Assembly: GCA_020629335.1 (NCBI GenBank)
Contig: JAHDDN010000037.1
Coordinates: 1 to 21,898, forward strand
Origin: Chitinophagales bacterium
GTDB lineage: Bacteria > Bacteroidota > Bacteroidia > Chitinophagales > UBA2359
Length of the DNA: 21,898 nt
Reading direction: 5' to 3'
In this document: positions 7,649 through 21,898 of the stretch, piece by piece
How the letters are laid out: each line of letters begins with the position of its first letter
Numbering within the stretch: the first letter of the stretch is position 1
Made by a program: the position numbers and the translations under genes
The notes under the pieces: model-generated
Told to the model about the DNA's origin: nothing
What the model saw: only the letters and a program-made list of their open reading frames with translations
Database searches by the model: none

Positions 7649-7702
7649 TGCGTAATGATGAATGAATATTGATTAATGAGTAATGCATAATGATTAATGA
7701 AT
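7647..7702. repeat. Heptamer tandem array 1, starting on the stop codon
   Basis: Eight degenerate 7-bp units in exact register: AATGCGT, AATGATG, AATGAAT, ATTGATT, AATGAGT, AATGCAT, AATGATT, AATGAAT. The first two bases are the last two of the permease-peptidase stop codon (TAA, 7646-7648). As 7 is not a multiple of 3, the TAA formed at most unit junctions moves through all three frames. Confidence 0.85.
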
Positions 7703-7705
7703 AGT

Positions 7706-7747: not shown

Positions 7748-7844
7748 AACGTCCAATTTTTTAATCAATACCGTAACGTCCATCTTGAATAAACACCACA
7801 ACGTCCATCTGAAACATCCATCTTGAATCAACACCACATCGTCC
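7748..7844. repeat. Degenerate tandem repeat with AACGTCCA core
   Basis: The core AACGTCC occurs at 7748, 7775 and 7800, with variants AACATCC at 7813 and ATCGTCC at 7838, giving steps of 27, 25, 13 and 25 bp. The best units read AACGTCCATCTTGAAT followed by AAACACCAC. It lies between array 1 and the large repeat copy A, preceded by a 7-bp palindrome (CGTTGCA-C-TGCAACG, 7737-7751). No coding sense on either strand convinced me. Confidence 0.6.
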
Positions 7845-7859
7845 AAGCATAGGGAATTT

Positions 7860-8078
7860 GCGCAAGGGATAGTAGTGGTATGTAGCGTCGAGAAGTAGCT
7901 TATGGAGCTTAGGCACACGCAGGCTGGCCACGAAGTGGCAGACAAGAGGGCCTTAGCGCAATAGCTACTGAACAGCTACATAAGAACGGATAGCCCGACC
8001 CCTTATTTTTTTGGCCAGCGGGCGGACACATAGGTCCGCCCCTACATGGGCTGGCCAAAAAAATAAGGGGTTGCGCCC
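7860..8078 (+). repeat. Large structured intergenic element, copy A
   Basis: Begins GCGCAAGGGATAGTAGTGG. Its core (7878-7996) aligns with the reverse strand of copies B and C: shared landmarks in order are GTGGTATGT, GCGTCGAGA, GCTTA.GGA.CTTAG, ACGCAGGCT.GCCACG, AGACAAG, CTTAG and CATAAGAACGGA. A hairpin GCCAC-GAA-GTGGC (7927-7939) keeps its stem in copies B and C while the loop changes. The end runs into the long inverted repeat at 7998-8071. The GCGCAAGGGATAG ... AGCCCGACC outline recalls structured elements recurring in Bacteroidota; Rfam Flavo-1 is a family to compare, but I cannot confirm identity. Confidence 0.75.
7998..8071. repeat. Long perfect inverted repeat with a nested hairpin
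   Basis: Arms 7998-8018 and 8051-8071 are perfect 21-bp complements (22 with C8019-G8050), each with a run of seven T or A. The 32-bp interior holds a second perfect hairpin: GGGCGGAC (8020-8027), loop ACATAG, GTCCGCCC (8034-8041). The inner GGGCGGAC/GTCCGCCCCTAC resembles a separate dispersed repeat type, suggesting one element sits in the loop of another. Because of the T/A runs it could terminate transcription on either strand. Confidence 0.85.
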
Positions 8079-8166
8079 TAATAAAAAACCTATTTGTAAA
8101 AAGGGAGGAATATGCTTATCTTGAAATATTGAATATACTGTTAGCGTTAATGAATAAGTTAGGAAT

Positions 8167-9252
8167 ATGGCAAAAGCAATAGAAAAAAGCTGGTATGAAA
8201 ATGACTTGCCAATTTACTTAATAATCATATTTATAGCTAGCCTTAGTGCTTGTAAGGCTACGGTCAAAACGGAAGCCTTAGAAGAAAAGGAGGAAATTGT
8301 AGAACAAATTCCTAATGAAAATTTTGTGCCTTTATTTTATGAGGGACAGTTGTGTCATTGGGTGCGCAATATCTTTGAAGATCGAAAAGGGCATCTTTGG
8401 TTGGGGACTAATCATTATGGTATTATGCGTTATAATGGAGATACGCTGGAATATTTTTCGGAAAAACAAGGCCTTGGTATTGGACGGATTACAGGAATCG
8501 TAGAGGATGAAAAAGGACATCTTTGGGTAGGAACTTATAGGGGCTTAAGTAAGTATGATGGCGAATCATTCACCAATTATACGGAAGAGGATGGCCTGAA
8601 GAATAGCGAAATTTGGAGCCTAATACAAGATCGAAATGGCGCATTATGGATGGGTACGATGGAAGGTGTAAGTCGATTTGATGGGAAAGAATTTACCAAT
8701 ATATCCATTCCTCGATCTGATGTAAAAGATGCCGAACCCATTCTGACTCCTGATCGGATTTCAGCTATCTTGGAAGATAAAGAAGGCATGTTTTGGTTCG
8801 GAACAGATGGCTATGGCATTTGTAGATACGATGGAAAAACCTTCTCACATATTACGAAAGCAGATGGACTGCCCGATAATAATATCGCTAATTTGATGGA
8901 AGATTCAAAAGGCAATATTTGGATCGGAACGATGCATGGAGGGCTGTCAATGTATGATGGAAAAAGCTTCCAAAATTTTACTCAAGATGGTCTTATAGAA
9001 GGGGAGGAAGTCGGTGGACTTTATGAAGATAAAGAAGGTAATATTTGGTTGGCTGCTGAAAATTATGGGGTGTACCGATACGATGGAAAAACCTTTACTA
9101 ATTTTTATGAAAAAGAGGGCTTGATTACGAATGGTATTATCAGCATCTATGAAGATAAAAAAGGACGTTTTTGGATGGGTGGCTGGAAAGGACTATTCCG
9201 CTTTGATGGGAAAATTTTTACTACAGTGACTAAGAAAGGGCCGTGGAAGTAG
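8167..9252 (+). CDS. Lipoprotein with a seven-bladed propeller (ligand_reg_prop repeats)
   Basis: A 361-residue protein with a lipobox SLSAC, acylated cysteine C29, after a hydrophobic stretch (16-26). The rest is seven repeats of about 40-50 residues, the two-component-regulator propeller type (hallmarks EDxKGxxWxGT and RYDGKxFTNF): they begin near IFEDRKGHLW, IVEDEKGHLW, LIQDRNGALW, ILEDKEGMFW, LMEDSKGNIW, LYEDKEGNIW and IYEDKKGRFW. Seven units make one closed propeller. Such blades usually form the sensor half of hybrid kinases (two propellers plus Y_Y_Y); here there is no kinase, so it is a free-standing surface or periplasmic lipoprotein, perhaps ligand-binding. The N-region before the hydrophobic core is long and acidic (E6, E11, D13), odd for a signal peptide; a TTG at 8206 would give the more normal MPIYLIIIFIASLSAC. 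Fold firm, role unknown. Confidence 0.88.
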   Translation: MAKAIEKSWYENDLPIYLIIIFIASLSACKATVKTEALEEKEEIVEQIPNENFVPLFYEGQLCHWVRNIFEDRKGHLWLGTNHYGIMRYNGDTLEYFSEKQGLGIGRITGIVEDEKGHLWVGTYRGLSKYDGESFTNYTEEDGLKNSEIWSLIQDRNGALWMGTMEGVSRFDGKEFTNISIPRSDVKDAEPILTPDRISAILEDKEGMFWFGTDGYGICRYDGKTFSHITKADGLPDNNIANLMEDSKGNIWIGTMHGGLSMYDGKSFQNFTQDGLIEGEEVGGLYEDKEGNIWLAAENYGVYRYDGKTFTNFYEKEGLITNGIISIYEDKKGRFWMGGWKGLFRFDGKIFTTVTKKGPWK

Positions 9253-9254
9253 TT

Positions 9255-11657
9255 TTAATTTGCCCTCCTAACCTCATTCGCACCAGTAGATCTATTCTTA
9301 TAAGATACCTTTTTAAGATTGCCAAATTGATAACTGACAGATAAGCGGTAGAATTGGTCATCTCTTTGTCTTTCGAAAAATATATCTGTTTCACCCACCG
9401 AATAATAACCCGATGGTCTCGTAGTATTGAATACATCATTAGCGGTTAACCTGCAAATGAGTCGTTTGTCTAAAAATGACTTTTCTAAGTTGAAACTTAG
9501 GTTGGCCATATCTTCACGATGCGTAATTCCTTCATAAAGATCTCCCCAATACCAATAAGTAAAATCTAACTTTAGCGTCTCTAAAATATTGAAGCTATTA
9601 TTGGTGTAAAAATAAATATGCGGTTTAGGTTGAAGTCGGACAGCAATTAGATCTGATTCCACTATATCATTATAACTCAGCGTGAGGGTATTTTGTGTTG
9701 ACAACCAATCATTGCTATATTGCTTGGACAAAGAAGTATAGAAATTCTGCTCATAGCCATAATTAACTGGTTTAAGTACATAGCTGTAATCATCTTCTCC
9801 ACGAATGGCTCGTGCACCTAAAGGGTCGATCGTATAATTATAACCCACTTTGATATTCGTTTTTAGCCAATTGGTGATGATCTCGACATTATGCGTTTTT
9901 TGGGTGACTAAATCAGGATTGCCTTGTATGGAAGTATAGGCATCCTGATAATACAAAACAGGATTTAACTGACTATAACGAGGTCTACGAATACTGCTGC
10001 TATAAGATAGATTGATGTTTTGTTTATTGGGCAGTAAATAATTAATGGATAAGTTAGGAAATAAATTATTGAAATTATTTTTCAAATCCTGATTTTCTGC
10101 ATCTGCTAATTCAAGGACATAATGAGTGTACTCACTTCTAAGTCCGATAGAAAAGTTCAGATTAGGATTGATAGTACGATTGTAATTTACATAGCCAGCT
10201 GCTAATAGCTCGGTATATTTGAATGTATTAGATATCCTGTCATCGGGAATATATACATTATCATCATTAGCCACTAAAAAATCTAAATTAGCATCATTCA
10301 CTACTTGGCTTAATTTTGTACCAACTTCCAAAGAATGCTTGGTGTTAAGGTGCTTTTCATAGTCAAGCTGTGCAGAATAAACATCAATATTATGATTGTA
10401 TAAGTTTTGTATTAAGCGATTAGAAGTCTCGCCTTGTTCCAAGCTATATTCATCAATATAATTATTGCGATCATTGGTGATTAAAGAATATTGCCCACCG
10501 ATAAAAAGGGTAGAACCCAATGTATCAATCTGCTTTTGATAATTGGTTGATATAGAATTAGTCGCCGAACTTTGATCTCCATTAATGAAACTATCGTAAT
10601 AATTATCCCCATCACTATCAATTATTGTATTGCTGCTTTTATGAGAATTATCCATTTTTTCAAATAATCCCGAATATTCTGCGGATAAATAACTAGTTGA
10701 GTTCAGATCATATTGTACCCCAAAAGATAGGGTAGGGCTTGGCCGATAATTCCATCGCCAATCAGTTGTGACATCTGAATCTAAATAGACCGCTTCAGCC
10801 TCTCGAACACGTGTTGTATGCAATATTTCTCTTTCTTTGCCCCCATATATATCTATGCTTCCAGTCAATTTAAGTGCATTCTTAGCATAATTAGCCAGAA
10901 TCGTTGAGTTAGAAATCGTCCCAGCAAAGTTCGTATGGCTGACACTCTGTTGGAGCTTGATTTGATAGCCTTCTGTCCCCATTGTAGTGATGGTATTGAT
11001 CTTGATGATTGCTCCGCCATCCGCATCATATTTAGCAGATGGATTTCTAATGATTTCTATGTTCTTAATATTGCTTGCTAAGATTAGGTCTAATTGATCT
11101 ACCGTAATTCGTTGCCCATTAAGATAAAAAATAGTCGTCTCTTTTCCCACGACTTGGAATCCATCTTCTCCTTCTACCACACCAGGGGTTTTAGAGAGAA
11201 TCTCTTGAACAGAATTACTAGAAGCCAAGGAGGTTTTATCTACTGAAAAGGCCATCGTTCCATTCTCTTTCTCCACGATTCTCGCTATTTTGCCCTTTAC
11301 AGTCACTTCTTCCAGATCATGACTAGCAGTACTCACTTCAATCATCCCTAAATCAATATCCACTTGATCTTGATAGCGAACAAGCATAGTCGTATCTTCA
11401 AAAAGCAGGGAAGAAAATTTAAGCAATACTTCTGGCAGATCAATATCAGTCACTTTAAATGGGGCATTCATAAAGCTCGTCCCCTCTATTAAAGAAGAAT
11501 CGCTAGGATTCAATAAGATCACATTACCCATCTGTGGCTCTCCATTAGCATCAAGCACTTGGCCGCTTATACTATTGATATTTTGCCCCCAACATATACA
11601 AGATATCAAAAGCAATAAATAAAATGGGGCGAATTTAATAGGATTAAATAATTTCAT
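9255..11657 (-). CDS. Outer-membrane beta-barrel receptor (OMP_b-brl_3 type, TonB-receptor-like)
   Basis: An 800-residue outer-membrane protein. A signal peptide (MKLFNPIKFAPFYLLLLISC, cut near G24/Q25) is followed by a carboxypeptidase-regulatory-like beta-sandwich (29-105; ISGQVLDANGEPQMGNVIL), a plug-like domain (about 115-225) with VQEILSKTPGV, FYLNGQRI and IIRNPSAKYDADGGAIIKI, then a barrel of about 570 residues with alternating strands and aromatic girdles. The NPSAKYDADGG motif is typical of the OMP_b-brl_3 family rather than SusC. No SusD neighbour is present, so it is not a classic Sus pair. The last residues (STGANEVRRAN) form a polar tail beyond the final strand. It converges on the propeller lipoprotein with only 2 bp between stops and diverges from the LytS kinase gene, its likely regulator. 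Ligand unknown. Confidence 0.92.
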   Translation of the reverse strand: MKLFNPIKFAPFYLLLLISCICWGQNINSISGQVLDANGEPQMGNVILLNPSDSSLIEGTSFMNAPFKVTDIDLPEVLLKFSSLLFEDTTMLVRYQDQVDIDLGMIEVSTASHDLEEVTVKGKIARIVEKENGTMAFSVDKTSLASSNSVQEILSKTPGVVEGEDGFQVVGKETTIFYLNGQRITVDQLDLILASNIKNIEIIRNPSAKYDADGGAIIKINTITTMGTEGYQIKLQQSVSHTNFAGTISNSTILANYAKNALKLTGSIDIYGGKEREILHTTRVREAEAVYLDSDVTTDWRWNYRPSPTLSFGVQYDLNSTSYLSAEYSGLFEKMDNSHKSSNTIIDSDGDNYYDSFINGDQSSATNSISTNYQKQIDTLGSTLFIGGQYSLITNDRNNYIDEYSLEQGETSNRLIQNLYNHNIDVYSAQLDYEKHLNTKHSLEVGTKLSQVVNDANLDFLVANDDNVYIPDDRISNTFKYTELLAAGYVNYNRTINPNLNFSIGLRSEYTHYVLELADAENQDLKNNFNNLFPNLSINYLLPNKQNINLSYSSSIRRPRYSQLNPVLYYQDAYTSIQGNPDLVTQKTHNVEIITNWLKTNIKVGYNYTIDPLGARAIRGEDDYSYVLKPVNYGYEQNFYTSLSKQYSNDWLSTQNTLTLSYNDIVESDLIAVRLQPKPHIYFYTNNSFNILETLKLDFTYWYWGDLYEGITHREDMANLSFNLEKSFLDKRLICRLTANDVFNTTRPSGYYSVGETDIFFERQRDDQFYRLSVSYQFGNLKKVSYKNRSTGANEVRRAN

Positions 11658-11701
11658 ACATTTGATTTTGAAAGCAATTTATCTTTTAATTGCTCACCTA
11701 A

Positions 11702-11740
11702 CAAATTTACTATACCAATGAGTCCTAAGTGTATACCAAT
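11702..11740 (-). promoter_or_regulatory. Promoter and possible activator repeats for the outer-membrane receptor gene
   Basis: On the reverse strand a perfect TAnnTTTG box (TAAATTTG, 11709-11702) lies 45 bp upstream of the receptor start codon. Where a -33 box would be, two identical 9-bp direct repeats TATACCAAT occur at 11711-11719 and 11732-11740, 21 bp apart centre to centre. LytTR regulators are known to bind two 9-bp direct repeats spaced by 12-13 bp, and the spacer here is 12 bp; the sequence itself does not match the usual LytTR consensus well. A third, shorter TATACC is at 11780-11785. Confidence 0.45.
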
Positions 11741-11770
11741 AGCCTATAAGGCTTAAAGTAGTCACTTAGG
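11724..11770. promoter_or_regulatory. Compound dyad in the divergent intergenic region
   Basis: A perfect 8-bp outer inverted repeat, CCTAAGTG (11724-11731) and CACTTAGG (11763-11770), encloses an inner hairpin AGCCT-ATA-AGGCT (11741-11753). It overlaps the second TATACCAAT repeat. It could be an operator for a dimeric regulator, a cruciform or a repeat insertion. Confidence 0.45.
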
Positions 11771-11783
11771 TTTCATTTGTATA

Positions 11784-11801
11784 CCTTTAAAGGGCGTTCT
11801 T
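11784..11801 (+). promoter_or_regulatory. CCTTTAAAGG-CGTT motif, copy 1
   Basis: The palindrome CCTTTAAAGG followed by GCGTTCTT, 45-62 bp upstream of the LytS-type kinase start. The same 18 bases occur at 19065-19082 with two changes, next to the start of the hybrid kinase gene. Shared regulator site or short repeat; not decided. Confidence 0.3.
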
Positions 11802-11845
11802 ATTTATTGATGGCTAATTAGTTGATAATAGCTTACCTTTATAGC

Positions 11846-12853
11846 ATGTCATCAACACAAAGATCAATATTTTTTTGGGTCATGGTTTATCTCCTATGGA
11901 GCTTTATGAAATCAAGTGGAGGCGAGAACTTAGTTTACTTTATCGTGAATTTATTTAATATTCCGATCTTCATACTGGCTTATTATTATTTGAAGCATAT
12001 TTTAATTCCACATTTCTACGAAAAAGATAAATACATTCTTTTTTTCATTAACTTTCTCATAGGCTCTTTTGGATTATATTTACTTTGGAGAGTTTTTGGG
12101 ATTTTATGGTTGGATAATTTAAGAGATTTGTGTGATATTCCTTTTATGCGCTTTGACCGTTACTTAGTATATACTGTTCAGTTTTATTCGCCAGGCATAT
12201 TATTATTAGTTTGGGAAATGATCGAAGAGAAAAGAGCAGAAAAGGAACGCTTTAATGAATTAGAAAAACAAAAGCTCAATACCGAATTAAAGTACTTAAA
12301 AGCCCAACTCAATCCTCACTTCCTATTCAACTCCTTTAATAACCTCCATTCCCTGATCGTTACCAATGACAGCAAAGCAGCAGATATGGTACTGCAACTA
12401 TCTTCCATTTTAGAGTTCATATTGTATAAGAGCCAAAAGCCCCATGTCATGCTTCAAGAAGAAGTAGAAGTCGTAGAGAAATATATAGAATTGGAGAAAA
12501 TAAGATACGGAGATCGCTTGAAGGTTAGCTTCGAAAAAGAAGGCGATTTTTCTATGCCCATTTCTCCCTTATTAGTCTTATCTTTGGTAGAGAATGCTTT
12601 TAAGCACGGAGCCAGTGGAGACATTGACAATCCAGAAATAAAGATCAATCTCAAAGTCGAAGCAAAACAATTATCTTGTAATATCTGGAATACCAAATCC
12701 CAATATCAAGGCGAATTAAAAGATGTCCATAAAGAAGGGATAGGCTTATCCAATGTGAAAAGGCAGTTAAGCCTCCAATACCCAGATCAACACGAATTAA
12801 TCATCCAAGATTTAGATGAATACAATGTCCAATTAAAAGTCAATCATGAGTAA
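11846..12853 (+). CDS. LytS/YehU-type sensor histidine kinase (His_kinase family)
   Basis: A 335-residue membrane kinase. Four hydrophobic segments cover residues 8-20, 29-53, 62-88 and 107-124, followed by a basic/acidic coiled coil (125-155) and the His_kinase domain. The phospho-acceptor motif is QLNPHFLFNSFNNL with H158. The ATP-binding part shows an N-box LVLSLVENAFKHGA and a G-box EGIGLSNVKRQL. There is no recognisable extracellular sensor domain, so the signal may be sensed in the membrane. The frame is open from a TTG at 11822, but the ATG at 11846 gives a normal start. It overlaps the LytTR regulator by 8 bp, so the pair is surely co-translated. Divergent from the outer-membrane receptor gene, its likely target. 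This kinase-plus-LytTR arrangement is common in Bacteroidota. Confidence 0.93.
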   Translation: MSSTQRSIFFWVMVYLLWSFMKSSGGENLVYFIVNLFNIPIFILAYYYLKHILIPHFYEKDKYILFFINFLIGSFGLYLLWRVFGILWLDNLRDLCDIPFMRFDRYLVYTVQFYSPGILLLVWEMIEEKRAEKERFNELEKQKLNTELKYLKAQLNPHFLFNSFNNLHSLIVTNDSKAADMVLQLSSILEFILYKSQKPHVMLQEEVEVVEKYIELEKIRYGDRLKVSFEKEGDFSMPISPLLVLSLVENAFKHGASGDIDNPEIKINLKVEAKQLSCNIWNTKSQYQGELKDVHKEGIGLSNVKRQLSLQYPDQHELIIQDLDEYNVQLKVNHE

Positions 12854-13553
12854 TAAAATTAGCTGCCTCATAGTAGATGACGAAGCGCCTGCCATTAAAT
12901 TAATCGAGAAGTACTGTTCTATGATAGATCAGTTAAAGGTAGAATACACTTGTCAAAGTGCAGTACATGCTTTTGATTACCTACAAAATAACTCAGTCGA
13001 TCTAATATTTTTAGACATTCAAATGCCCGTCCTAAATGGCATCGCTTTTTTGAAATCTATCAAAAATCCACCCTCCATTATCATCACCACTGCCTATCGT
13101 GAATACGCCGTAGAAGGCTATGATTTGGACATCGTTGATTACCTACTCAAGCCCATCGGATTTGATCGTTTCCTAAAAGCCATAGATCGCTATCAAAACA
13201 AAAAAAACACAATAGTAGAAACCACTCCTAAAACCGCAACAGAAGATTTCGTCTTTTTTAATGTCAATAAAAAACACCATAAAGTAATGATATCGGATAT
13301 CATTTATGTCGAAAGTTTGAAAGATTATAGCTGCATCCACACCGTCCAAGAAAAATTAGTCGTCAAAGGAAATCTGGGCACTACTTTAAAAGAGCTTCCT
13401 GCTGATCGTTTCATAAGAATTCACCGTTCCTTTGCCATTGCCTTTTCTGCTCTTAGCTCCTACAGTCAAACCGAAGTCGAGCTAAATAGTCTTTCTCTCC
13501 CCTTGGGAAAAAGTTATAGAGAAGACTTCCTTAGCCGCATTAAAAATGCGTAA
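12846..13553 (+). CDS. LytTR-family response regulator
   Basis: A 235-residue regulator with a receiver domain (1-120) and a LytTR DNA-binding domain (about 134-233). The receiver has the acidic pair D11/D12 in CLIVDDE, phospho-acceptor D57 in IFLDIQMP, T81/T82 in IIITTAY and K102 in YLLKP, so it should be phosphorylatable. The LytTR part shows VMISDIIYVESLKDYSCI, a KGNLGTTLKELP stretch, and RFIRIHRSFAI, matching the family. Its start codon overlaps the kinase gene by 8 bp. It most likely binds the direct repeats in the 11.7-kb region and controls the divergent receptor (inference). The last two codons (Asn-Ala) and the stop codon lie within the first heptamer of a tandem array, so the present C-terminus appears to have been set by the repeat. 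Confidence 0.94.
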   Translation: MSNKISCLIVDDEAPAIKLIEKYCSMIDQLKVEYTCQSAVHAFDYLQNNSVDLIFLDIQMPVLNGIAFLKSIKNPPSIIITTAYREYAVEGYDLDIVDYLLKPIGFDRFLKAIDRYQNKKNTIVETTPKTATEDFVFFNVNKKHHKVMISDIIYVESLKDYSCIHTVQEKLVVKGNLGTTLKELPADRFIRIHRSFAIAFSALSSYSQTEVELNSLSLPLGKSYREDFLSRIKNA

Positions 13554-13614
13554 TGCGTAATGCGTAATGCATAATGTGTAATGATTAATGTGTAATGATT
13601 AATGCATAATAATT
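13545..13614. repeat. Heptamer tandem array 2, overlapping the LytTR gene end
   Basis: Ten 7-bp units in register: AATGCGT three times, then AATGCAT, AATGTGT, AATGATT, AATGTGT, AATGATT, AATGCAT and AATAATT. The first unit starts inside the coding region (13545), and the TAA at its junction with the second unit is the stop codon (13551-13553). Confidence 0.9.
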
Positions 13615-13630
13615 AGATTATGTAAATCTA

Positions 13631-13669
13631 AAAATCCGTGCAATCTGTGTAATCAATAAAAAATCCGTG
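13631..13669. repeat. AAAATCCGTG direct repeat
   Basis: AAAATCCGTG at 13631-13640 and 13660-13669, separated by CAATCTGTGTAATCAAT. The ATCCGTGCAATCTGTGTAAT phrase resembles a short dispersed repeat common in Bacteroidota intergenic DNA (recollection). Confidence 0.5.
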
Positions 13670-13680
13670 ATTATTTATTT

Positions 13681-13928
13681 GGGCGGCTATTCCTGCTGTC
13701 CGTTCTTATGCGGCTGTTTGGCGGCTACTTCACTAAGCTGTACTTGTCTTCCACTGCGTGGCAAGCCTGCGTCCAGCTAAGTTCCGTAAGCCCCCTCTCG
13801 ACGCCACATACCACTTCCATCAGGGCCGCATATTAGCAATGAGCAAAAAATCTCACTACTCATTACCCAATACTCACTACCAAAAAGCCACATACCACTT
13901 CCATCAGGGCCGCGGATTAATGATGAGT
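13681..13928 (-). repeat. Large structured intergenic element, copy B
   Basis: Nearly identical to copy C at 19185-19433: the only differences I find in 13681-13913 are a small indel region near 13688 and two C/T changes near 13720 and 13732. On the reverse strand it aligns with copy A over about 120 bp. A 27-bp segment (13803-13829) is repeated exactly at 13887-13913 after 57 bp; that spacer contains four heptamer-like units on the reverse strand (AGTGAGT, ATTGGGT, AATGAGT, AGTGAGA). The hairpin CCAC-TGC-GTGG (13751-13761) corresponds to the one in copy A. The reading frames on both strands through this region are repeat artefacts. Confidence 0.85.
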
Positions 13929-13955
13929 AAATTTGACAGAAAGACTCAAAAATAA

Positions 13956-13987
13956 AAAGGACATGCAAAATAAATTGCACGTCCTTT
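13956..13987 (-). terminator. Probable terminator for the DUF1254 transcript
   Basis: Inverted repeat 13956-13968 / 13975-13987 (AAAGGAC, one mismatch, TGCAA) with a 6-nt loop. On the reverse strand it is followed by TTATTTTTGAG, a U-rich tail. It lies about 245 bp beyond the DUF1254 stop codon, the nearest reverse-strand gene end. Confidence 0.55.
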
Positions 13988-14043
13988 CTGTACAAAAAAA
14001 CGACTATACTAATAATTAGCCAAAATTGTTAAGACTGTTTTTC

Positions 14044-14073
14044 AAAGGAGCATAATACTGATTGTACTCCTTT
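14044..14073. terminator. Hairpin AAAGGAG/CTCCTTT, possible terminator
   Basis: A 7-bp perfect stem, AAAGGAG (14044-14050) and CTCCTTT (14067-14073), followed on + by ATTTTAC. The loop is long (16 nt) for a terminator. It may stop read-through from the LytTR side. The rest of 14074-14233 is AT-rich, with nothing I can identify. Confidence 0.35.
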
Positions 14074-14233
14074 ATTTTACTCAATTAGAAAAGAAAGTTA
14101 TTTACTAACTTTTTTTAAAACGTTTATTCTCTTCATCGTATGTTGGCCTTGTTTGTTAATAAGCCTTTGGCTTAATTTATTGATATGTTTTATTAAGATC
14201 ATGATATATAGTTTAGAGATTGGTTAAAAAATC

Positions 14234-15631
14234 CTATGCTTCATTTACTTCAACTACTGGAGGTTCCCAACTTCCTTCAGCAATACCACCTACTGGCCAA
14301 TAAGCTCTGAATAGAAGGTTAAATTCATCACTTGGAGCAGGTAACCAATTATTGTAGTATGGGTCACTTTCTGCTAATGCTTGGTTTTGAATAAAAATCT
14401 TCAATGAACCATCGTCTTCATAAGTTAAAGGATCGCTATCCGAATGTCCAAGCGCATATCTATTGATAGGATTATCTATAAAATAGCCATCCTTATCATA
14501 CATAGTCAATGACCAAAAAGCTTTAACTGGTGGTGCATCATCAAAAGTCATTATGTACTTCTTACTCCCATCAAGCTGTTCTTTGTTTTCGTCTATTAAG
14601 GTTTTATAGTAAACTGCATCTGCTACCAAGTTAGCTCCGAGACCGATATAAGCGACCATCGCCCGTTGGAAGTAATCGGTACCAAAATTTGCGACAGTAT
14701 CCTGTGTCAAACCAGTCCAACCATTCGGTGTATCAGCAGGTTTGTCAGAAAATGTTTTTAAAGCTCTTAAAGTCTCCGAAGGGATTTTATCCATAGCCGA
14801 AATAATAGCAGGTTTAAACCTCATTTCATTAAAGGGAACAGGAACATCTACTCCTACCCCTATTTTCCTGAATTCTGCCATTTCTTCCTGGTCAATTTCG
14901 GCAGGAGGGTTCTTAACTAACAAACGATTCATTCTGGCAAAAAAGGCACTCATAGACATATCGGCAACAATGGTGTTAGGGTCTCTGGTATCCATTTTTC
15001 GTTCGATTCCGTCGGGCTTTTGATAATCTGTTCCCCATTTACTCAAAGGGGTCAATATCGTCTGTTCTTGCAATTGAATGGCGGTTGCTCCATCATTATT
15101 AGGGTCGTTGACTTGAAAGCGACCTAATATCCATACAAAGTTAGTAGAGGATCGGATGGTATTGACGAGATTAGGGATATTTGAGTCTGATACATCTCCA
15201 CTATCGGGACCTACAATCAAATAATTACCTCCCTCTATTTCTTCAGTTCGGGTACCTGGTGAATATTTGATGGCATTGGTATAAGCATCCAAAAATGGCA
15301 GCATATAGTATTCGTCTGCGGTAGCAGGTACGCTCATAACCAATGGCCCATCAGATAAATCTAAAAAAGCAGTGCAGTAGTAGGTATCGCAATTGGGGCG
15401 TACGACAGAGGTGTCACTAGAGTCTGGAAATTTACTCTTCTTGGAAAACTGGTTAACAGGGGCCCCCTTTGAAATAGCCTTAACATAATTGGTTGATTGT
15501 TCTTTGGTGATATCAAAAAGAACTAATGGAAGTCCAAAAATAAATGCTTTCGTAGCAATAGCTATTTCTTCCTTGACGGAAATAGTGTCCTCGATAACAG
15601 TAGTTGCGGAATTGGTAATCAAATTTTTCAT
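14234..15631 (-). CDS. DUF1254/DUF1214 domain protein
   Basis: A 465-residue protein with two uncharacterised domains. DUF1254 covers about 70-205 (VVRPNCDTYYCTAFLDLSDGP, then SVPATADEYYMLPFLDAYTN and NFVWILGRFQV). DUF1214 covers about 338-447 (YIMTFDDAPPVKAFWSLTMY, then DNPINRYALG and NNWLPAPSDEFNLLFRAYWP). This two-domain architecture is widespread in bacteria, with no established activity. Many relatives carry a signal peptide, but this one does not: MKNLITNSATTVIEDT is polar, so it may be cytoplasmic or exported by another route. A 66-residue gene lies 98 bp upstream on the same strand, with no promoter seen between them, and the hybrid kinase gene is further upstream. A terminator-like hairpin lies downstream. 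Domain call firm; function unknown. Confidence 0.9.
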   Translation of the reverse strand: MKNLITNSATTVIEDTISVKEEIAIATKAFIFGLPLVLFDITKEQSTNYVKAISKGAPVNQFSKKSKFPDSSDTSVVRPNCDTYYCTAFLDLSDGPLVMSVPATADEYYMLPFLDAYTNAIKYSPGTRTEEIEGGNYLIVGPDSGDVSDSNIPNLVNTIRSSTNFVWILGRFQVNDPNNDGATAIQLQEQTILTPLSKWGTDYQKPDGIERKMDTRDPNTIVADMSMSAFFARMNRLLVKNPPAEIDQEEMAEFRKIGVGVDVPVPFNEMRFKPAIISAMDKIPSETLRALKTFSDKPADTPNGWTGLTQDTVANFGTDYFQRAMVAYIGLGANLVADAVYYKTLIDENKEQLDGSKKYIMTFDDAPPVKAFWSLTMYDKDGYFIDNPINRYALGHSDSDPLTYEDDGSLKIFIQNQALAESDPYYNNWLPAPSDEFNLLFRAYWPVGGIAEGSWEPPVVEVNEA

Positions 15632-15729
15632 AGTTTTTTATTTTAAAAATTTAAAGAATATCAGTAATTGAAACAAAGTCGTTTTAACTTTGAAGCTTAG
15701 AGCGTAAAATTTATTTGTACACAGTGAGC

Positions 15730-15930
15730 TTATAGTGTCCTAAAGTTTTCTTGTCTAATTTGTGCTTCAATTTCTTTTATATCCTCTTTGGTAAATTCGA
15801 TATTGAAGTCGAAACTAAAGAAGTCTCTGACTGATTTAAAGCTGATAAAGTTCACAAGACTTTTTACTATACTATTAGATTGGCTGCTTGTGTTGCTTTG
15901 TACTGTCTGATTGATTTGGATTGTGCGCAT
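15730..15930 (-). CDS. Small protein of unknown function
   Basis: A 66-residue ORF, MRTIQINQTVQSNTSSQSNS at the N-terminus followed by a segment rich in Phe, Val and Ser (IVKSLVNFISFKSVRDFFSF) and an acidic amphipathic helix (TKEDIKEIEAQIRQENFRTL). It has no signal peptide, zinc motif or known domain. Evidence that it is real: a good TAnnTTTG box about 80 bp upstream, an AT-rich leader typical of genes here, no overlap with another gene, and position directly before DUF1254 on the same strand. The Ser/Asn/Gln-rich front and helical end would suit a small secreted or adaptor-type peptide, but that is a guess. Confidence 0.5.
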   Translation of the reverse strand: MRTIQINQTVQSNTSSQSNSIVKSLVNFISFKSVRDFFSFDFNIEFTKEDIKEIEAQIRQENFRTL

Positions 15931-16008
15931 GGTTAAAATTTTAATGATTATTTAAAAAGATTTATTAGTCAATTTTTAAGAAAGTCTGTTTCTATAAAAC
16001 TGATGCCA

Positions 16009-16016
16009 CAAATATA
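16009..16016 (-). promoter_or_regulatory. -7 box of the small-protein/DUF1254 unit
   Basis: TATATTTG on the reverse strand, a perfect TAnnTTTG match, giving a leader of about 70 nt. The nearest upstream TTG (16034-16032) is 15 bp away, not the usual 19-21, so the -33 element is uncertain. The rest of 15931-16146 shows no other site I can support. Confidence 0.4.
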
Positions 16017-16146
16017 TAGGTGATTGCCCCGCAACCCTCAGTCAAATGGGTTCAAGTATGGGTAAATTGGTTGTGATGGAGAAAAAAAGAATGGTAAATT
16101 CGTTGCAGAAAGGAGATTTGGTTCGATATAAATTGTTGATAATCAG

Positions 16147-19053
16147 TTATTTGTTGGTTGCGCTCGGTGAGACACCAAATTTGTCTTGAAAAGCTTTGGA
16201 AAAATGAGAAGGATCTTTAAAACCAACTTGCCAAGCCACTTCTGAGACGTTCAGATCGGAGTTTTCTAGTAGGGATTTAGCCTCGCTTAGACGATAATTC
16301 CTGATAAATTGAGAGGGGGAGGTATTGATAAGGGCTTTCATTTTGCGGAATAGCTGGGAGCGGCTCATTCTAATTTTTTGGCAGAGCTGTGGCAGTCCGA
16401 AGTTTTCGTCTCCATGGTGTTCAGCCACGATCTGTCGTACTTTTTGGATAAAAACATCTTCTACTTCGATAGCTTCTTGCAAGGCTGGATCAGGTGTGTC
16501 AATACTATTTTCGCTTTGTATATTCTTAGAAAAATAAGCGACCAAACGCTGTTGTCGCTCCACCAATTTTTCCAAGCGCACAAGCAATTCTTCTTTATGG
16601 AATGGCTTTGCTAAATAGGCATCTGCCCCATGTCTTAGGCCAGATATTTTGGAAGCCGCATCGGCCTTGGCTGTCAGTAGGATGATAGGGATGTGGCTGG
16701 TCCGCTCGTCATTCTTTAAGGTGTCGCAGACTTCATAGCCATCCTTTTCAGGCATCATCAAATCGCTAATGATAAGATCAGGAATGTGTTCTTGTGCCTT
16801 TTCAATACCAATGCGACCATTATAAGCAACGTCCAATTGATAGTATGGCTCTAAGCAATTTTGTAAATAAATAACAACATCAGCATTATCTTCAATAATG
16901 AGTAAGTGAGGAAGCTCTTTCTTTGTTGTTTTATGGCCATTTGCTAAAACCTTGGTATTTTCAGTATCCTGGAATATAGTAGTACTAAGTTTTTCATTTT
17001 CTAAGGCAGTTTTGATAAGTGGCGCATTATTATTGATAGGTAAAGAAATACTAAAAGTAGTTCCCTCGCCTAATTTTGAGTTGACAACAATACTCCCTTC
17101 CATTAAGTTGACTAGTTCTTTACAATGTGCCAATCCAATCCCTGAGCCTTTTCCCTGTCTGCTATTCTCATTGTCCGCTTGATAAAAGCGATCAAATACC
17201 CTTGATAAATCCTTCTCTGCGATACCTATCCCACTGTCTATCACTTCGATTTGAAGTTGCTCATTATGTAGAGATAGCTTAATAGAGATAGTACCAGCTG
17301 AAGGCGTAAATTTGATAGCATTAGAAATTAAATTATGTAAGAGTTGATGGACTTGTTTGGCATCATAGTCCATCACTTGAGATTCTATACTTGAAAAAAA
17401 ACGTAGCGAAAGATTTTTACTATTAGCATAGGTCTGAAAAGACTCTGTGATATAGCGAAGGTAATAGACAATATCATCTTGCTGTAGTTGTAGCTTAAAA
17501 GATTTATCTTCCAATTTAGATAGGTCGAGCAACTGATAGATGATATCTAAAAGCTGATTGGCATTGCGTTTAATGAGTTCGGCACCTTGAGTGCTTTTTG
17601 CTTTATCAGTACTATTAAGCTGGTCTGCCATACCCAATATGACCGTCAATGGAGTACGAAATTCATGTGTCAGATTAGTATAAAGTCGACTTTTAAAACC
17701 ATCTAATTCTTTAAGCCGCTGTGCTTCTAAGTGTTCAAACTTCAATTCGTTTTGTAATTCTAATCTTCTGATGATGATCCTTCTAAATCGATAGACCAAA
17801 GCTAAAGTCATCGTCAAAACCATCGCTAAGCCATTGAATAAGACGACATACTTAACAGTTTTCAAATCATTGTGTAAATTTAAAGTTAATAAGGCTATAA
17901 AAGTTACGAAGTAAGGTAGAATGACACCCATCAAAAAAAAGCGTGCTAACTTATCTTTGGAGAAAAGTAAATAGACGAAAGCCCCTAAAGTAGTAGAAAG
18001 AAAACAGATCACCAGAAAGGGCCTAATAGTAGCCCAAATTATAGTAAGAAAAGAAGGATAACTACGTGTAAATACACCCAAAAAGCATAAAGAAATAACG
18101 AAAATAATCGCCCAACCCAAAGCTTTATGAATACTAGGGAACTTGGATTTAGTATTAATCAATACTCGAGCAAAATGGATAAAAATGGCAAATCGACCTA
18201 CATCCCAAAAGGTACGTAAGATCAACAATAATCTTGGATGATATAGAAAAAACTGAGCGAATAATTCATTTTGAAATACTTGTCCAATGCCTGAGATAAT
18301 CCAAATGCACTGGAAGATAAAAAACCACAAAAATACCTTTTCCCTAAACAATATATACAGAAACACAGTGACAATAAATAGCATAATACCCGCTCCTAAG
18401 GCCAGCATGTATAATATATTGTAAAGACTCCATTCTTTATCTGAATAAACCACTGTTTCATCCACTAATGCCAAATTGACTTTCATAGTACAGCCTTCAG
18501 CCATAGATAAACGAACCCACCTATCTAATACCTCCCCTTGAGCTAATCGTAACTGTATTAAGGACGGATCAATAATATTGGGATAGTCACGTTGATTAGC
18601 ATTGAATATACTGCCCGATTTCCCCTCCATTAAGCGGCCTTGTTGATCTAAGCTATAGCTGTTAACCTGCTTAAAAGTGAACTCCCAAGGCCAGCAATTA
18701 CCAACTCGATCTAATCTTAGCGCAAAATGATCTAACGAACTCTCCAGATCACTACTGATTAGAATTCGAAACCAGTAATTTTGGTGGGCTTTTATATCAA
18801 ATTGGGCATCCTCTCTTAAATCAAGGAACTTAGCATCTTTTAGCTGACCTTGCCTCAGCTCCTCAAAGGTCAATGAGTTTTCACCTTCTTCCAATATCCA
18901 TTTTAAAGGCGGGAGTTCCTGTGTATCAAAAGCCTCTTGAACATGATATTCAAGAGCAGGAGCCAACTGTTCATTGGTAGCCATATCTTGAGCAGCTATG
19001 GGAATCCATAACAAGATCAAAATAGCAACAAATAAATAGCAATGGTATCTCAT
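16147..19053 (-). CDS. Hybrid two-component protein: 7TM-DISM sensor, histidine kinase, receiver, AraC output
   Basis: A 968-residue one-protein signalling system. Order: signal peptide (1-21, cut near AAQ), periplasmic 7TMR-DISMED2-like sensor (about 35-205), seven membrane segments (about 213-422), coiled linker, HisKA with H463 in LTHEFRTPLTVI, ATPase with N-box HNLISNAIKF (573-582), G1 DSGIGIAEKD and G2 GKGSGIGLA, receiver (715-832) with E721/D722 in LLIIEDN, phospho-acceptor D764 in ISDLMMP, T794 and K816, then an AraC HTH domain (870-966) with SRSQLFRKMKALINTSPSQF and SEVAWQVGFKDPSHFSKAF. All catalytic residues are present. Such proteins bind DNA from the inner membrane to switch on nearby genes; here the likely target is the 66-residue/DUF1254 unit downstream on the same strand. 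The DISM sensor in place of propellers suggests a small-molecule or carbohydrate ligand (inference). Confidence 0.95.
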   Translation of the reverse strand: MRYHCYLFVAILILLWIPIAAQDMATNEQLAPALEYHVQEAFDTQELPPLKWILEEGENSLTFEELRQGQLKDAKFLDLREDAQFDIKAHQNYWFRILISSDLESSLDHFALRLDRVGNCWPWEFTFKQVNSYSLDQQGRLMEGKSGSIFNANQRDYPNIIDPSLIQLRLAQGEVLDRWVRLSMAEGCTMKVNLALVDETVVYSDKEWSLYNILYMLALGAGIMLFIVTVFLYILFREKVFLWFFIFQCIWIISGIGQVFQNELFAQFFLYHPRLLLILRTFWDVGRFAIFIHFARVLINTKSKFPSIHKALGWAIIFVISLCFLGVFTRSYPSFLTIIWATIRPFLVICFLSTTLGAFVYLLFSKDKLARFFLMGVILPYFVTFIALLTLNLHNDLKTVKYVVLFNGLAMVLTMTLALVYRFRRIIIRRLELQNELKFEHLEAQRLKELDGFKSRLYTNLTHEFRTPLTVILGMADQLNSTDKAKSTQGAELIKRNANQLLDIIYQLLDLSKLEDKSFKLQLQQDDIVYYLRYITESFQTYANSKNLSLRFFSSIESQVMDYDAKQVHQLLHNLISNAIKFTPSAGTISIKLSLHNEQLQIEVIDSGIGIAEKDLSRVFDRFYQADNENSRQGKGSGIGLAHCKELVNLMEGSIVVNSKLGEGTTFSISLPINNNAPLIKTALENEKLSTTIFQDTENTKVLANGHKTTKKELPHLLIIEDNADVVIYLQNCLEPYYQLDVAYNGRIGIEKAQEHIPDLIISDLMMPEKDGYEVCDTLKNDERTSHIPIILLTAKADAASKISGLRHGADAYLAKPFHKEELLVRLEKLVERQQRLVAYFSKNIQSENSIDTPDPALQEAIEVEDVFIQKVRQIVAEHHGDENFGLPQLCQKIRMSRSQLFRKMKALINTSPSQFIRNYRLSEAKSLLENSDLNVSEVAWQVGFKDPSHFSKAFQDKFGVSPSATNK

Positions 19054-19064
19054 GTTTTATTAAT

Positions 19065-19082
19065 CCTTTAAAGGTCGTTTTT
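19065..19082. promoter_or_regulatory. CCTTTAAAGG-CGTT motif, copy 2
   Basis: CCTTTAAAGG followed by TCGTTTTT, 12-29 bp upstream of the hybrid kinase start codon (which reads leftward). Matches copy 1 at 11784-11801 in 16 of 18 positions. The orientation relative to the gene differs from copy 1, but the palindromic half is symmetric. Confidence 0.3.
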
Positions 19083-19184
19083 CTTGAAATCAAGCCAATC
19101 ATAATAAAGTCAGTATAATAAACTTAAGATACACAATTTTTACTGTTATGTGAAATTTAAACAAATTAAAAAATATAATAATGA

Positions 19185-19433
19185 GGGCGGCTGTATCCTG
19201 CTGTCCGTTCTTATGCGGCTGTTCGGCGGCTACTCCACTAAGCTGTACTTGTCTTCCACTGCGTGGCAAGCCTGCGTCCAGCTAAGTTCCGTAAGCCCCC
19301 TCTCGACGCCACATACCACTTCCATCAGGGCCGCATATTAGCAATGAGCAAAAAATCTCACTACTCATTACCCAATACTCACTACCAAAAAGCCACATAC
19401 CACTTCCATCAGGGCCGCGTATTAATGATGAAT
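19185..19433 (-). repeat. Large structured intergenic element, copy C
   Basis: Near-identical to copy B in the same orientation, with the 27-bp segment duplicated at 19308-19334 and 19392-19418 and the same 57-bp spacer. It ends in a short heptamer run (AATGATG, AATGCGT, AATG). The run from 19054 to 19184 holds only AT-rich sequence and the motif at 19065. ORFs called across this region on either strand match those called across copy B, because both are translations of the repeat. Confidence 0.85.
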
Positions 19434-19440
19434 GCGTAAT

Positions 19441-19475
19441 GTTTTTTGTCATTCTGAACGAAGTGAAAGAATCAC
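19441..19475. repeat. Dispersed repeat sharing TTCTGAACG, copy 2
   Basis: Nineteen of 20 bases match 7706-7725, and the match to the familiar Bacteroidota repeat continues with AAGTGAAAGAATCAC. Because it reads through as MFFVILNEVKE on +, it produces a spurious ORF at 19439-19639. Confidence 0.6.
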
Positions 19476-19560
19476 TTAACACTACAAACTTGGAAGTTAA
19501 GCAATCAGTCTGCAAGTCCGATAATCCCACTCCGCCCAAACTACAGGAATATTCTCAAAG

Positions 19561-19582
19561 CCCGAACGCTTTAGCGTTTGGG
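19561..19582. repeat. Palindrome CCCGAACGCT / AGCGTTTGGG
   Basis: A 10-bp inverted repeat (one G-T wobble) with a TT loop. No U-run follows on +. It looks like another short dispersed palindrome. The surrounding bases from 19476 to 19679 hold nothing else I can identify. Confidence 0.55.
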
Positions 19583-19679
19583 AGGTGTGGTGCTTATACT
19601 TTGGGTTATACTTTTAAAGAAATGTTGGTTTTATTATAATTCATATCCAATTATAAATTAAGGATTTAAATACTTGTCT

Positions 19680-19739
19680 TTAAGCGACAATATCACCTAA
19701 ATCATCATCTGCTACTTTGATAATCAAATTTTTTGACAT
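19680..19739 (-). CDS. Possible 19-residue peptide or remnant gene start
   Basis: Reads MSKNLIIKVADDDLGDIVA on the reverse strand, with an AT-rich leader. The bases AAAAATTTGATTA plus CAA also open the DUF1254 gene (MKNLITNSATT), so this may be a truncated relative of that gene start rather than a working peptide. Too short to judge by composition. Confidence 0.2.
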   Translation of the reverse strand: MSKNLIIKVADDDLGDIVA

Positions 19740-19858
19740 ATTTTACTCAAAAATATAAATGAAAGGCAAGAGATAAATACTTTCAAAAAGTATTACTCAT
19801 TATTAAAGTTCTTGATGGTAAAATATTTATTTTAATTATCAGTAATTAAATAAAAACT

Positions 19859-20440
19859 ATGGAGATTTCAGAATATGTTTTTAGAAAAAAAGAAGAATTG
19901 GAAATAATTCATTCTTTGGAATTAGATAAGGAAATCAATGAGTATATATTATTTGAGAAACCTTATACAAGGAGAGAGTTTGACTTGTTTGGAGAAAGGC
20001 CTACTATTTCGATTAAAAAAATCGGTAATGATATTAGTGGAGAATCTATCAAAGCATATAATATTTTAAATGTGAATCAGAGGGAAATAAGAAATGCAGT
20101 TCTGAAAATTACTCTTCAAGGAGTGGCTTTATTTCCCATTGAGAAAATTGTTTCAGGTGTTGCGTCGATTATCTTATTAATATTAGAGTTTTACGAATTA
20201 GCTAAATATGATCTTACTGAAAATACTGCAAGGACTTTATATTGTATTTATTTGATCGATAAAAAAGAGTTTAGCATGAATGAGATACTAGATATTTATA
20301 ATCACAAGTTTAAAGAAAAATTAAAAAGTGAAAGCATTTCCGAAATTTTATCTCACTTAGAATACTTAAAATGTCTTAAAATTGACAATAAATCAATGTT
20401 GATAACTATGGAGGAAGATATTAAAATTATAAGAGCATGA
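19859..20440 (+). CDS. Unknown protein with winged-helix-like C-terminus, partner of the HExxH protein
   Basis: A 193-residue protein I do not recognise. Residues 1-60 are charged and contain FDLFGERPTISIKKIGNDIS. Residues 88-115 form a hydrophobic stretch (ALFPIEKIVSGVASIILLIL), long enough for one membrane segment or a buried helix. Residues 122-187 read like a winged helix: ENTARTLYCIYLI (H1), FSMNEILDIYN (H2), KSESISEILSHLEYLKCLKI (recognition helix and wing), NKSMLITMEED (wing strand). The gene overlaps the following one by 4 bp (ATGA), so the two are coupled. Base composition and codon use are clearly AT-richer than the rest of the window, suggesting acquisition. It may regulate or tether the metalloprotease-like partner, in the way ImmR-type repressors pair with ImmA proteases; that is analogy only. 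Confidence 0.75.
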   Translation: MEISEYVFRKKEELEIIHSLELDKEINEYILFEKPYTRREFDLFGERPTISIKKIGNDISGESIKAYNILNVNQREIRNAVLKITLQGVALFPIEKIVSGVASIILLILEFYELAKYDLTENTARTLYCIYLIDKKEFSMNEILDIYNHKFKEKLKSESISEILSHLEYLKCLKIDNKSMLITMEEDIKIIRA

Positions 20441-21681
20441 TTGATAATAGCCGCTTTTCAAAACCAAATGATAAATACAATATTTTTAATCTGAAAATAG
20501 ATTTGTCTTCAGGAGAAGATATTGGTGTCTTTGCGCATGAATATTATCATCACTTACAGAACGTAACAACAATACATGGTGCAGAAAGATTCAATCTTTT
20601 TATTCAACTAATAGGGCATATCGCTCGACTTGGAAAGAAAGGAATTCCTTTAAAGCTCCCTTTAAGTAAATGGCAACCAGATGAGCAAGAAATTCAAAAA
20701 GATTTGAAGAACTTATTAGGTCATATTTCAATGTGGGATTATCTTGAAAAAAAGACGATCTTTAATGATGTTTTTACAGAAGAAGATTTAGGAAGTATTG
20801 TATCTGGTCCAAGCCACAATGAAGGAGGAATTATCCCTTGTTATGTTATAGAGTATCAGGATGAATTAATAGGTTATCCTATTGGAGGATTTACTTTATC
20901 GGAATCTTCAGCATTCTCTGTAGAACAGTTATACTCACAAAATCCTATTGAAAGGAATAAGCTTGATCCGAAATATGAAACTTTTGAATATACTCTTATA
21001 CCTTTTTTAATTTCTAAACTAAGTGATTTTAGCTCAAGAGACGTTTTTTTAACAAGTTTAATGGCATGTGAATTGATTTATTCAGTCTCAACTCCTGCTA
21101 TGGGATTCTTGTATATTTATAAGAGCTTGTTCTCTCAGGTAGGTCAATTAAAAAACTATAAACAATTTTTACGTGAGTTGTCAATAGAGTTTAAAGAAAT
21201 AATTAATGAAAATATTTCTTTGGAATTGGAAATGATAGAAGAAACTCAACTTAATTCTAAAGATTTAGGGAAAGAACTAAATTCAATGATTAATTGGCAA
21301 ATTAAACAAATAGAAAAAGGACTTAGGATGAGAAAAGAGAACCCTTATTTTATTTTTGATAAATTGACCAAAGAAGAAGACGGAATTAAATGGCTTATCA
21401 ATGAATTTCCTCCTTCCATTATTCAAATCAAAAATCAAGGACTAAGAAATTTTGAAGTTAATCATTATGTACTTTTAGACTCATTAAGTAAAATTGTAAT
21501 TAATTTGATGTACTCTCCAGAACTGATTTATGAAGAATTCAAAAAACACTGTATTGTCGAAGAAATAAATAGTAAAAGTTATAAAGTAAACATTAAAACT
21601 GATGATAGTTTAACAACTAATATTATGGGATATGCACTTAGAATGTTAAATCTTGATAATTGTATAATCGAAAAATTATAA
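20437..21681 (+). CDS. Putative HExxH zinc metalloprotease of unknown family
   Basis: A 414-residue protein. Near the N-terminus FAHEYYHHLQNVTTIHG gives the zinc-protease motif H34-E35-Y-Y-H38, followed by Q41 and a Thr/Gly turn. About 117 residues later a predicted helix LSESSAFSVEQLY (154-166) offers E156 as third zinc ligand, a gluzincin-like layout with a long insertion. The rest is mainly helical, with charged segments at 240-300 (EIINENISLELEMIEETQLN) and no signal peptide or membrane segment, so it should be cytoplasmic. I cannot place it in a named peptidase family; it is not a normal ImmA/M78, M1 or M48 sequence. It is translationally coupled to the upstream winged-helix-like gene and ends 125 bp before copy D of the large repeat. 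Zinc site fairly sure; protease activity and role are inference. Confidence 0.8.
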   Translation: MIDNSRFSKPNDKYNIFNLKIDLSSGEDIGVFAHEYYHHLQNVTTIHGAERFNLFIQLIGHIARLGKKGIPLKLPLSKWQPDEQEIQKDLKNLLGHISMWDYLEKKTIFNDVFTEEDLGSIVSGPSHNEGGIIPCYVIEYQDELIGYPIGGFTLSESSAFSVEQLYSQNPIERNKLDPKYETFEYTLIPFLISKLSDFSSRDVFLTSLMACELIYSVSTPAMGFLYIYKSLFSQVGQLKNYKQFLRELSIEFKEIINENISLELEMIEETQLNSKDLGKELNSMINWQIKQIEKGLRMRKENPYFIFDKLTKEEDGIKWLINEFPPSIIQIKNQGLRNFEVNHYVLLDSLSKIVINLMYSPELIYEEFKKHCIVEEINSKSYKVNIKTDDSLTTNIMGYALRMLNLDNCIIEKL

Positions 21682-21806
21682 AAGAAGTGATAAGTTATTT
21701 GGCTTTGTTAATTCATCGGCTAAATGTTTCTTGATATATCAGTATGATTAATGTGATAATAAGTTGTCTCTATAATATGTCATTTTCAATATACACCATC
21801 CCAATT

Positions 21807-21898
21807 GCGCAAGGGATAGTAGTGGTATGTGGCGTCAGAGAGACGACTTACGGCGCTTAGTGATGTGCAGGCTCCAATAAGAGACAAGCAGCACTTAG
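21807..21898 (+). repeat. Large structured intergenic element, copy D (cut by window end)
   Basis: Starts with GCGCAAGGGATAGTAGTGG exactly like copy A, and continues GTATGTGGCGTC as in copies B and C. It then diverges: CGTC-AGAGA-GACG forms a local hairpin (21833-21845), and the GCCAC/GTGGC hairpin of the other copies is not kept. Landmarks GGCTTA-like ACTTACGG, GCAGGCT and AGACAAG are still present. The element runs off the window. Confidence 0.7.

Follow-up and report, generated by a model that had tools for sequence, protein, structure and literature searches.

Gene content and composition of the locus

The window, i.e. the whole 21,898-nt stretch of DNA analysed here, contains a two-gene cassette encoding proteins of 193 and 414 amino acids (Table 1). 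The original prediction had described this layout with a 4-bp ATGA overlap, on which ORF positions and sequence agree, and the overlap suggests that the two genes are translationally coupled. Both reading frames are open along their whole length. The GC contents of the 193-aa ORF (26.8%) and the 414-aa ORF (28.5%) lie below those of all ten other window ORFs of at least 110 aa (33.7–40.1%), as do their GC3 values (0.237 and 0.205, compared with 0.317–0.397), in agreement with the claim that the cassette is AT-richer than its neighbours; as the reference is the 21,898-nt window alone, 'foreign' is here a window-relative term. The synonymous codon choice of the cassette is not foreign in kind and leans further to A/T, with mean log relative codon frequencies of −0.95 and −0.94 for the two ORFs versus −1.01 to −1.11 for the other window ORFs. 

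Table 1. Positions of the cassette, its predicted active-site residues and the surrounding repeats in the window
Feature	Position	Strand	Basis or remark
Partner ORF, 193 aa	19859..20440	+	ATG start; ORF list
414-aa ORF (P0001), HEYxH/E predicted metallopeptidase	20437..21681	+	ATG start; homologues; superfamily placement
ATGA overlap	20437..20440	+	TGA of first gene overlaps ATG of second gene
HEYYHHLQ, residues 34–41	20536..20559	+	Predicted zinc-binding His and catalytic Glu; HEYxH kept in 18/18
E156 codon, first of ESSAFSVEQ	20902..20904	+	Predicted third metal ligand; aligned E in 18/18
Dispersed intergenic repeat, upstream of cassette, not cassette-specific	19185..19431	.	98% copy at 13681–13926 (247 nt)
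Inverted 77% copy of part of the repeat, 127 nt	7868..7994		Sequence comparison
Partial repeat copy downstream of cassette, inverted relative to 19185–19431	21805..21873	.	

The remainder of the window resembles an ordinary Bacteroidota chromosome. Pfam matches there comprise a LytTR regulator with its kinase, DUF1254/DUF1214, an outer-membrane receptor and an M1-peptidase fusion adjoining an ABC transporter gene, and a hybrid two-component protein was recognized by eye. The M1–ABC protein had matches in 63 of 296 Bacteroidota genomes, the best of them with 37–38% identity. None of the window ORFs was recognized as an integrase or a defence gene, the window ending 217 nt past the 414-aa gene (position 21898). 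Rfam gave no match on the window, and a promoter/terminator scan reported no terminator-like sites and 23 promoter-like sites compared with 13.5 ± 3.9 in shuffled sequences. The possibility that the cassette is bounded by repeats of its own was rejected, as the flanking repeat also occurs at two other places in the window (Table 1). Separately, short related repeats consisting of TGCGTAATG-type units start where two genes, unrelated to each other, end (7646–7703 and 13551–13608).

The HEYxH/E protein superfamily

The 414-aa protein contains the HEYYHHLQ motif and the later ESSAFSVEQ stretch as claimed. It was unmatched in Pfam at E ≤ 1 and in NCBIfam, PADLOC and the PDB at E ≤ 5, which bears out its description as an unfamiliar HExxH protein. 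The PADLOC 2023 models matched neither cassette protein at E ≤ 5, and neither matched a toxin–antitoxin family in Pfam or NCBIfam. A search of 5.8 billion proteins, which depends on shared words and called genes, returned three relatives with 58% (P0002), 36% (P0003) and 32% (P0004) identity, which together with the window protein (P0001) constitute subfamily A; even its most distant member, at 32% identity, retains the motif columns. The sole Pfam peptidase hint in the set, a Peptidase_M41 match in P0003 (E 0.29), lies outside the motif and was regarded as noise. A family of the PHROGs collection with unknown function, phrog_15354, weakly matches five of the eight superfamily proteins scanned, namely the window protein (E 0.0035, over residues 27–322), L003 (0.00017), L024 (0.014), P0007 (0.045) and P0002 (0.12), and is unmatched by L006, P0003 and P0004. 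No other link to a family emerged from the libraries searched. A scan of whole genomes for phrog_15354 was uninformative (0/395), because the controls were likewise negative (0/14).

More distant relatives were identified with alignments of increasing breadth. An alignment of P0001–P0003 (A1) led to ten loci in Bacteroidota genomes (L001–L010), here designated subfamily B, whose proteins of 460–470 aa bear IFIHEYYHYLTN and IDEF (HEYYHYLTN/IDEF proteins). Wider profiles retrieved L024/L025 and then L031, L032 and L035, the last three with profile A6. Protein searches added P0007 on the Hymenobacter plasmid pHsw1 (5e-15) and L037, encoded on a plasmid of Aliarcobacter (21.9% identity over 89%, E 3e-5), and a viral-contig scan added L036 (24% identity, 4e-14). 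L024, P0007, L031, L032, L035, L036 and L037 make up subfamily C, which consists of HEY[VI]H proteins. Two further candidates were rejected as relatives and stand outside all counts: a SusC-like protein (by eye; L016), whose match spans about 58 residues only, and a phage MuF-like protein (by eye; L017), found by DNA pattern only. The latter (7776–9824), by eye a phage head-morphogenesis-like protein, carries HEYFHHLQNV in its C-terminal part, resembling the motif of the window protein.

Profile–profile comparison of subfamilies A (four sequences) and C (seven sequences) gave 98.1% locally, over query columns 14–409, and 99.2% globally, compared with 0.3% for a reversed-alignment control. Subfamilies B and C were connected at 96.9% (local) and 98.3% (global), and A and B at 94.3% locally over 75 columns and 86.0% globally, so that the sequence kinship of A and B is judged firm mainly across this 75-column motif region. 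By its sequence the window protein is placed as a member of this unnamed superfamily, which was defined in the present analysis and is termed HEYxH/E here.

Eighteen sequences were then aligned jointly: the four of subfamily A, seven of the ten of subfamily B (the near copies L002, L008 and L010 were left out) and the seven of subfamily C. Y14, H34, E35, Y36, H38, P75, E156, Y185 and P220 are identical throughout, and T45 is kept in 17 and G48 in 16 sequences, at an identity between subfamily A and the other subfamilies of about 17–20%. H34, E35 and H38 are also among the 13 invariant columns of an 11-sequence alignment (A5). The conservation of HEYxH is partly by construction, since subfamily B and L036 were fetched by peptide patterns, one of them containing HEY; as judged from the aligned sequences, the HEYYHHLQ motif nevertheless exceeds chance. 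The conserved Glu, located 110–136 residues after HEYxH in all 18 aligned sequences, is absent from all fetching patterns. Subfamily B was confirmed by tblastn over query residues 6–78 only, a stretch that does not reach this Glu, whereas profile A6, the source of L031, L032 and L035, includes its column. E156 is described as a conserved, probable third ligand. Subfamily B has a homologous N-terminal block, HEYYH and the aligned Glu in common with the window protein, and differs from it in its low identity and in its usual neighbour, as described below.

Although subfamily C matches subfamily A over nearly its full length, a set of four C-terminal cysteines distinguishes the two. These are invariant in five aligned members of subfamily C (L024, L026, L031, L032 and L035; C388, C394, C411 and C423 in L031 numbering), might constitute a metal or Fe-S site, and are not kept as a set in P0001–P0004; two cysteines were noted by eye near the end of P0001.

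This conservation bears on whether the cassette could be a passive, AT-rich hitchhiker, a horizontally acquired pair that has no current role. The off-composition orphan genes between dispersed repeats would fit such an origin, but both frames are open end to end, and the retention of the motif columns within subfamily A and in 18 of 18 sequences across the superfamily makes this reading very improbable.

AlphaFold models of the 414-aa protein reached a mean pLDDT of 47 with four sequences and 54 with 11 sequences. In the better model, residues 1–152, which span HEYYHHLQ, have pLDDT values below 50, and E156 opens a predicted helix (pLDDT about 55–70 there). Foldseek searches yielded no match at E ≤ 0.001 in the PDB or among viral models.

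The HEYxH/E family is rare. At E ≤ 0.001, profile A2 matched 2 of 395 Bacteroidota genomes (one of the two judged a chance match), profile A4 matched 0 of 128 and 2 of 151 genomes, and profile A6 matched 3 of 197 and 2 of 247 genomes; these counts include genomes that supplied query rows and are rough lower bounds because narrower profiles miss members, as in the case of G100, which was unreported by A2 and later found by A6. Scanning genome and viral contigs with single sequences, or viral contigs with the A1 and A5 profiles, gained nothing, and most tblastn searches of A, B and C proteins against plasmids and phages gave no match, the exceptions being the Hymenobacter and Aliarcobacter plasmids. 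No account of the family was present among the matches listed for the open-access literature, and no housekeeping role came to light among the homologues examined, a possibility raised with the original prediction.

The upstream 193-aa partner

Residues from about 119 to 193 of the partner show a helix-helix-helix-hairpin succession that by eye resembles a winged-helix pattern. To the eye, the helices and wing of the proposed winged-helix-like tail are suitably spaced, but the tail lacks a database match above noise: the best E-values were 0.043 in Pfam (below the cut-off), 0.02 in NCBIfam, 0.06 in the PDB and 0.0042 in PHROGs, the last to a glucosyltransferase over 58 residues. The protein database contains one partial homologue (P0006; 114 aa), encoded on a 555-nt contig, which covers 59% of the query and is 59% identical to it there.

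None of 446 ORFs of at least 50 aa from the fetched loci resembled the partner (phmmer, E ≤ 5), and the pair is therefore not a feature of the superfamily. The expectation that the partner is conserved beside homologues accordingly fails for subfamilies B and C, i.e. outside the narrow subfamily A. Within subfamily A the pair may be a shared feature, the sole hint being that P0006 (59%) is about as distant as P0002 (58%); among the matches listed, no partner homologue lies on a contig as long as that of P0002 (19,588 nt), which is weak evidence of absence because such a search depends on shared words and called genes. We infer that the partner is most likely a lineage-specific control part of the peptidase, such as a sensor, a repressor or an antitoxin.

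The last of these options raises the alternative of a toxin–antitoxin or addiction pair, in which the wHTH-like protein would act as antitoxin and autorepressor and the peptidase-like protein as a toxin that stabilizes a mobile element and does not sense phage. Such a pair would be in keeping with the small gene standing first, the 4-nt overlap, the AT-rich orphan character of the cassette and the presence, some 7 kb away from the relative in Aliarcobacter, of a gene for a HipA-family toxin. The absence of partner homologues beside the B and C relatives indicates that the peptidase-like protein does not in general depend on this antitoxin, and together with the lack of a toxin–antitoxin family match for either window protein it renders this alternative unlikely.

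ImmA (M78)/ImmR pairs resemble the cassette in combining an HExxH protein with a presumed DNA-binding partner, and the original prediction had likened the cassette to them. Pfam-A contains an M78 model, and membership was rejected because nothing in Pfam, and hence no M78 profile, matched the 414-aa protein at E ≤ 1. ImmA is also small, and its size and the spacing of its Glu differ from those of the window protein. Regulated proteolysis of the ImmA/ImmR kind, in which the peptidase would cut its DNA-binding partner and thereby switch on a mobile element, is quite improbable: while the HExxH gene is directly coupled to an HTH-like gene and some relatives adjoin integrases, the partner does not accompany the relatives, and no element to control was seen in the window. 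The analogy is possible as a way of working, not as membership.

Neighbourhoods of relatives and proposed role

In agreement with the original placement of the cassette in mobile-element control and conflict, a survey of homologue neighbourhoods showed that relatives are carried by mobile elements and have defence genes in their vicinity. A defence-type gene is present within the fetched stretch at 12 of the 17 B and C loci, with L003 counted once. This is a raw count without a control rate, and it overstates independence because it includes pairs of almost identical loci (L001/L002, L007/L008, L009/L010 and L031/L032). The five others are L005 and L032, at which one and two neighbours were scanned and PADLOC reported nothing, and L031, L036 and L037, whose neighbours were unscanned. 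At seven of the ten subfamily-B loci (L001–L003 and L007–L010) a DUF4238 gene lies directly downstream of the relative, in the position of usual neighbour that the 193-aa partner does not hold there (the Pfam match was run on the L003 copy). A single DUF4238 protein is reported to act as a one-gene system conferring strong resistance to phage T7 (PMC9122126). No DUF4238 gene was seen in the window, and no sequence relation between DUF4238 and the window protein is claimed.

PADLOC further identified an Avs4-like gene at L003 (6.2e-127), Wadjet JetA, JetC and JetD at L035, Upx-like (2.7e-20) and Ppl-like (2.9e-28) genes at L004 and L006, respectively, and DrmD, PDC-S68 and type III restriction–modification genes around the relative on a Hymenobacter plasmid (L026). 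L025 encodes a SIR2-like protein (PADLOC 4.4e-11), for which Pfam SIR2_2 remained below its cut-off. The next upstream ORF is tyrosine-integrase-like at six of the ten subfamily-B loci (L001, L002 and L007–L010; L002 by Pfam, the others by eye).

Several of these loci have additional features. Over 11.9 kb (8233–20156), L001 and L002 are 99.98% identical, although one record is assigned to Massilibacteroides vaginae and the other to Sphingobacterium psychroaquaticum; either an integrative element was transferred recently or one of the records is contaminated. At L035 (7787–10242), the gene for the HEYVHFLQ protein is followed 11 nt later by one for a second protein (330 aa) with HEVGHLIQ, beside the Wadjet genes, and RadC-, SSB- and DUF932-like ORFs were recognized by eye. 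On the viral contig L036 (170–9239), two large ORFs, one of 1075 aa and one of 847 aa that by eye resembles a helicase, precede the HEYIHYIQ protein, which adjoins a serine-recombinase-like ORF.

Another alternative is a metalloenzyme other than a peptidase, such as an HExxH oxygenase or hydrolase, that would act in metabolism or in modification. Against it, the neighbourhoods of the relatives resemble defence and mobile cargo more than biosynthesis. NCBIfam, which contains models of RiPP enzymes, was also not matched. That the 414-aa protein has no assigned fold (low pLDDT, no Foldseek match) leaves room for such an enzyme, which we consider quite unlikely. HEXXH proteins need not be peptidases, as HEXXH enzymes with oxidative chemistry have been described (PMC12636437).

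The explanation we prefer, and hold to be somewhat more probable than its converse, is that the 414-aa protein is an intracellular, zinc-dependent, gluzincin-like peptidase and that it works within a mobile conflict module directed against phage or rival elements, either as its effector or as a protease for processing. HEYYH, on one helix, would supply the general base and two of the ligands, both His, and the third ligand would come from E156, some 120 residues further on. The superfamily would travel as cargo of integrative elements, plasmids and defence islands, and the upstream 193-aa gene would act as a lineage-specific control part. Of the 'regulated-proteolysis or defence module' initially proposed, this keeps the part consistent with the off-composition cassette and with relatives that are mobile and near defence genes, and drops the ImmA/M78 kinship.

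A broader proposal is tentatively entertained as a sizeable possibility: the HEYxH/E proteins, with the window protein as a founding example, may form an undescribed superfamily of metallopeptidase effectors, distributed across phyla on mobile elements, that would cut a phage or host protein upon sensing an invader. Their companions would then vary among DUF4238, Avs4, Wadjet, PDC-S68 and SIR2, or be, as here, a dedicated wHTH-like partner.

Systems that pair a mobile peptidase with a coupled regulator are already known as a kind, while this family and this pairing are undescribed as far as the searches reach. Peptidase effectors constitute a small share of known prokaryotic immunity. The superfamily, whose scanned members have no Pfam, NCBIfam or PADLOC matches, recurs in the vicinity of defence genes on Bacteroidota mobile elements and was found once on a plasmid of Campylobacterota, and thus represents a concrete and testable candidate class. 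As the window pair has no defence gene beside it within the sequence analysed, it may be a stand-alone form and would therefore be convenient to assay.
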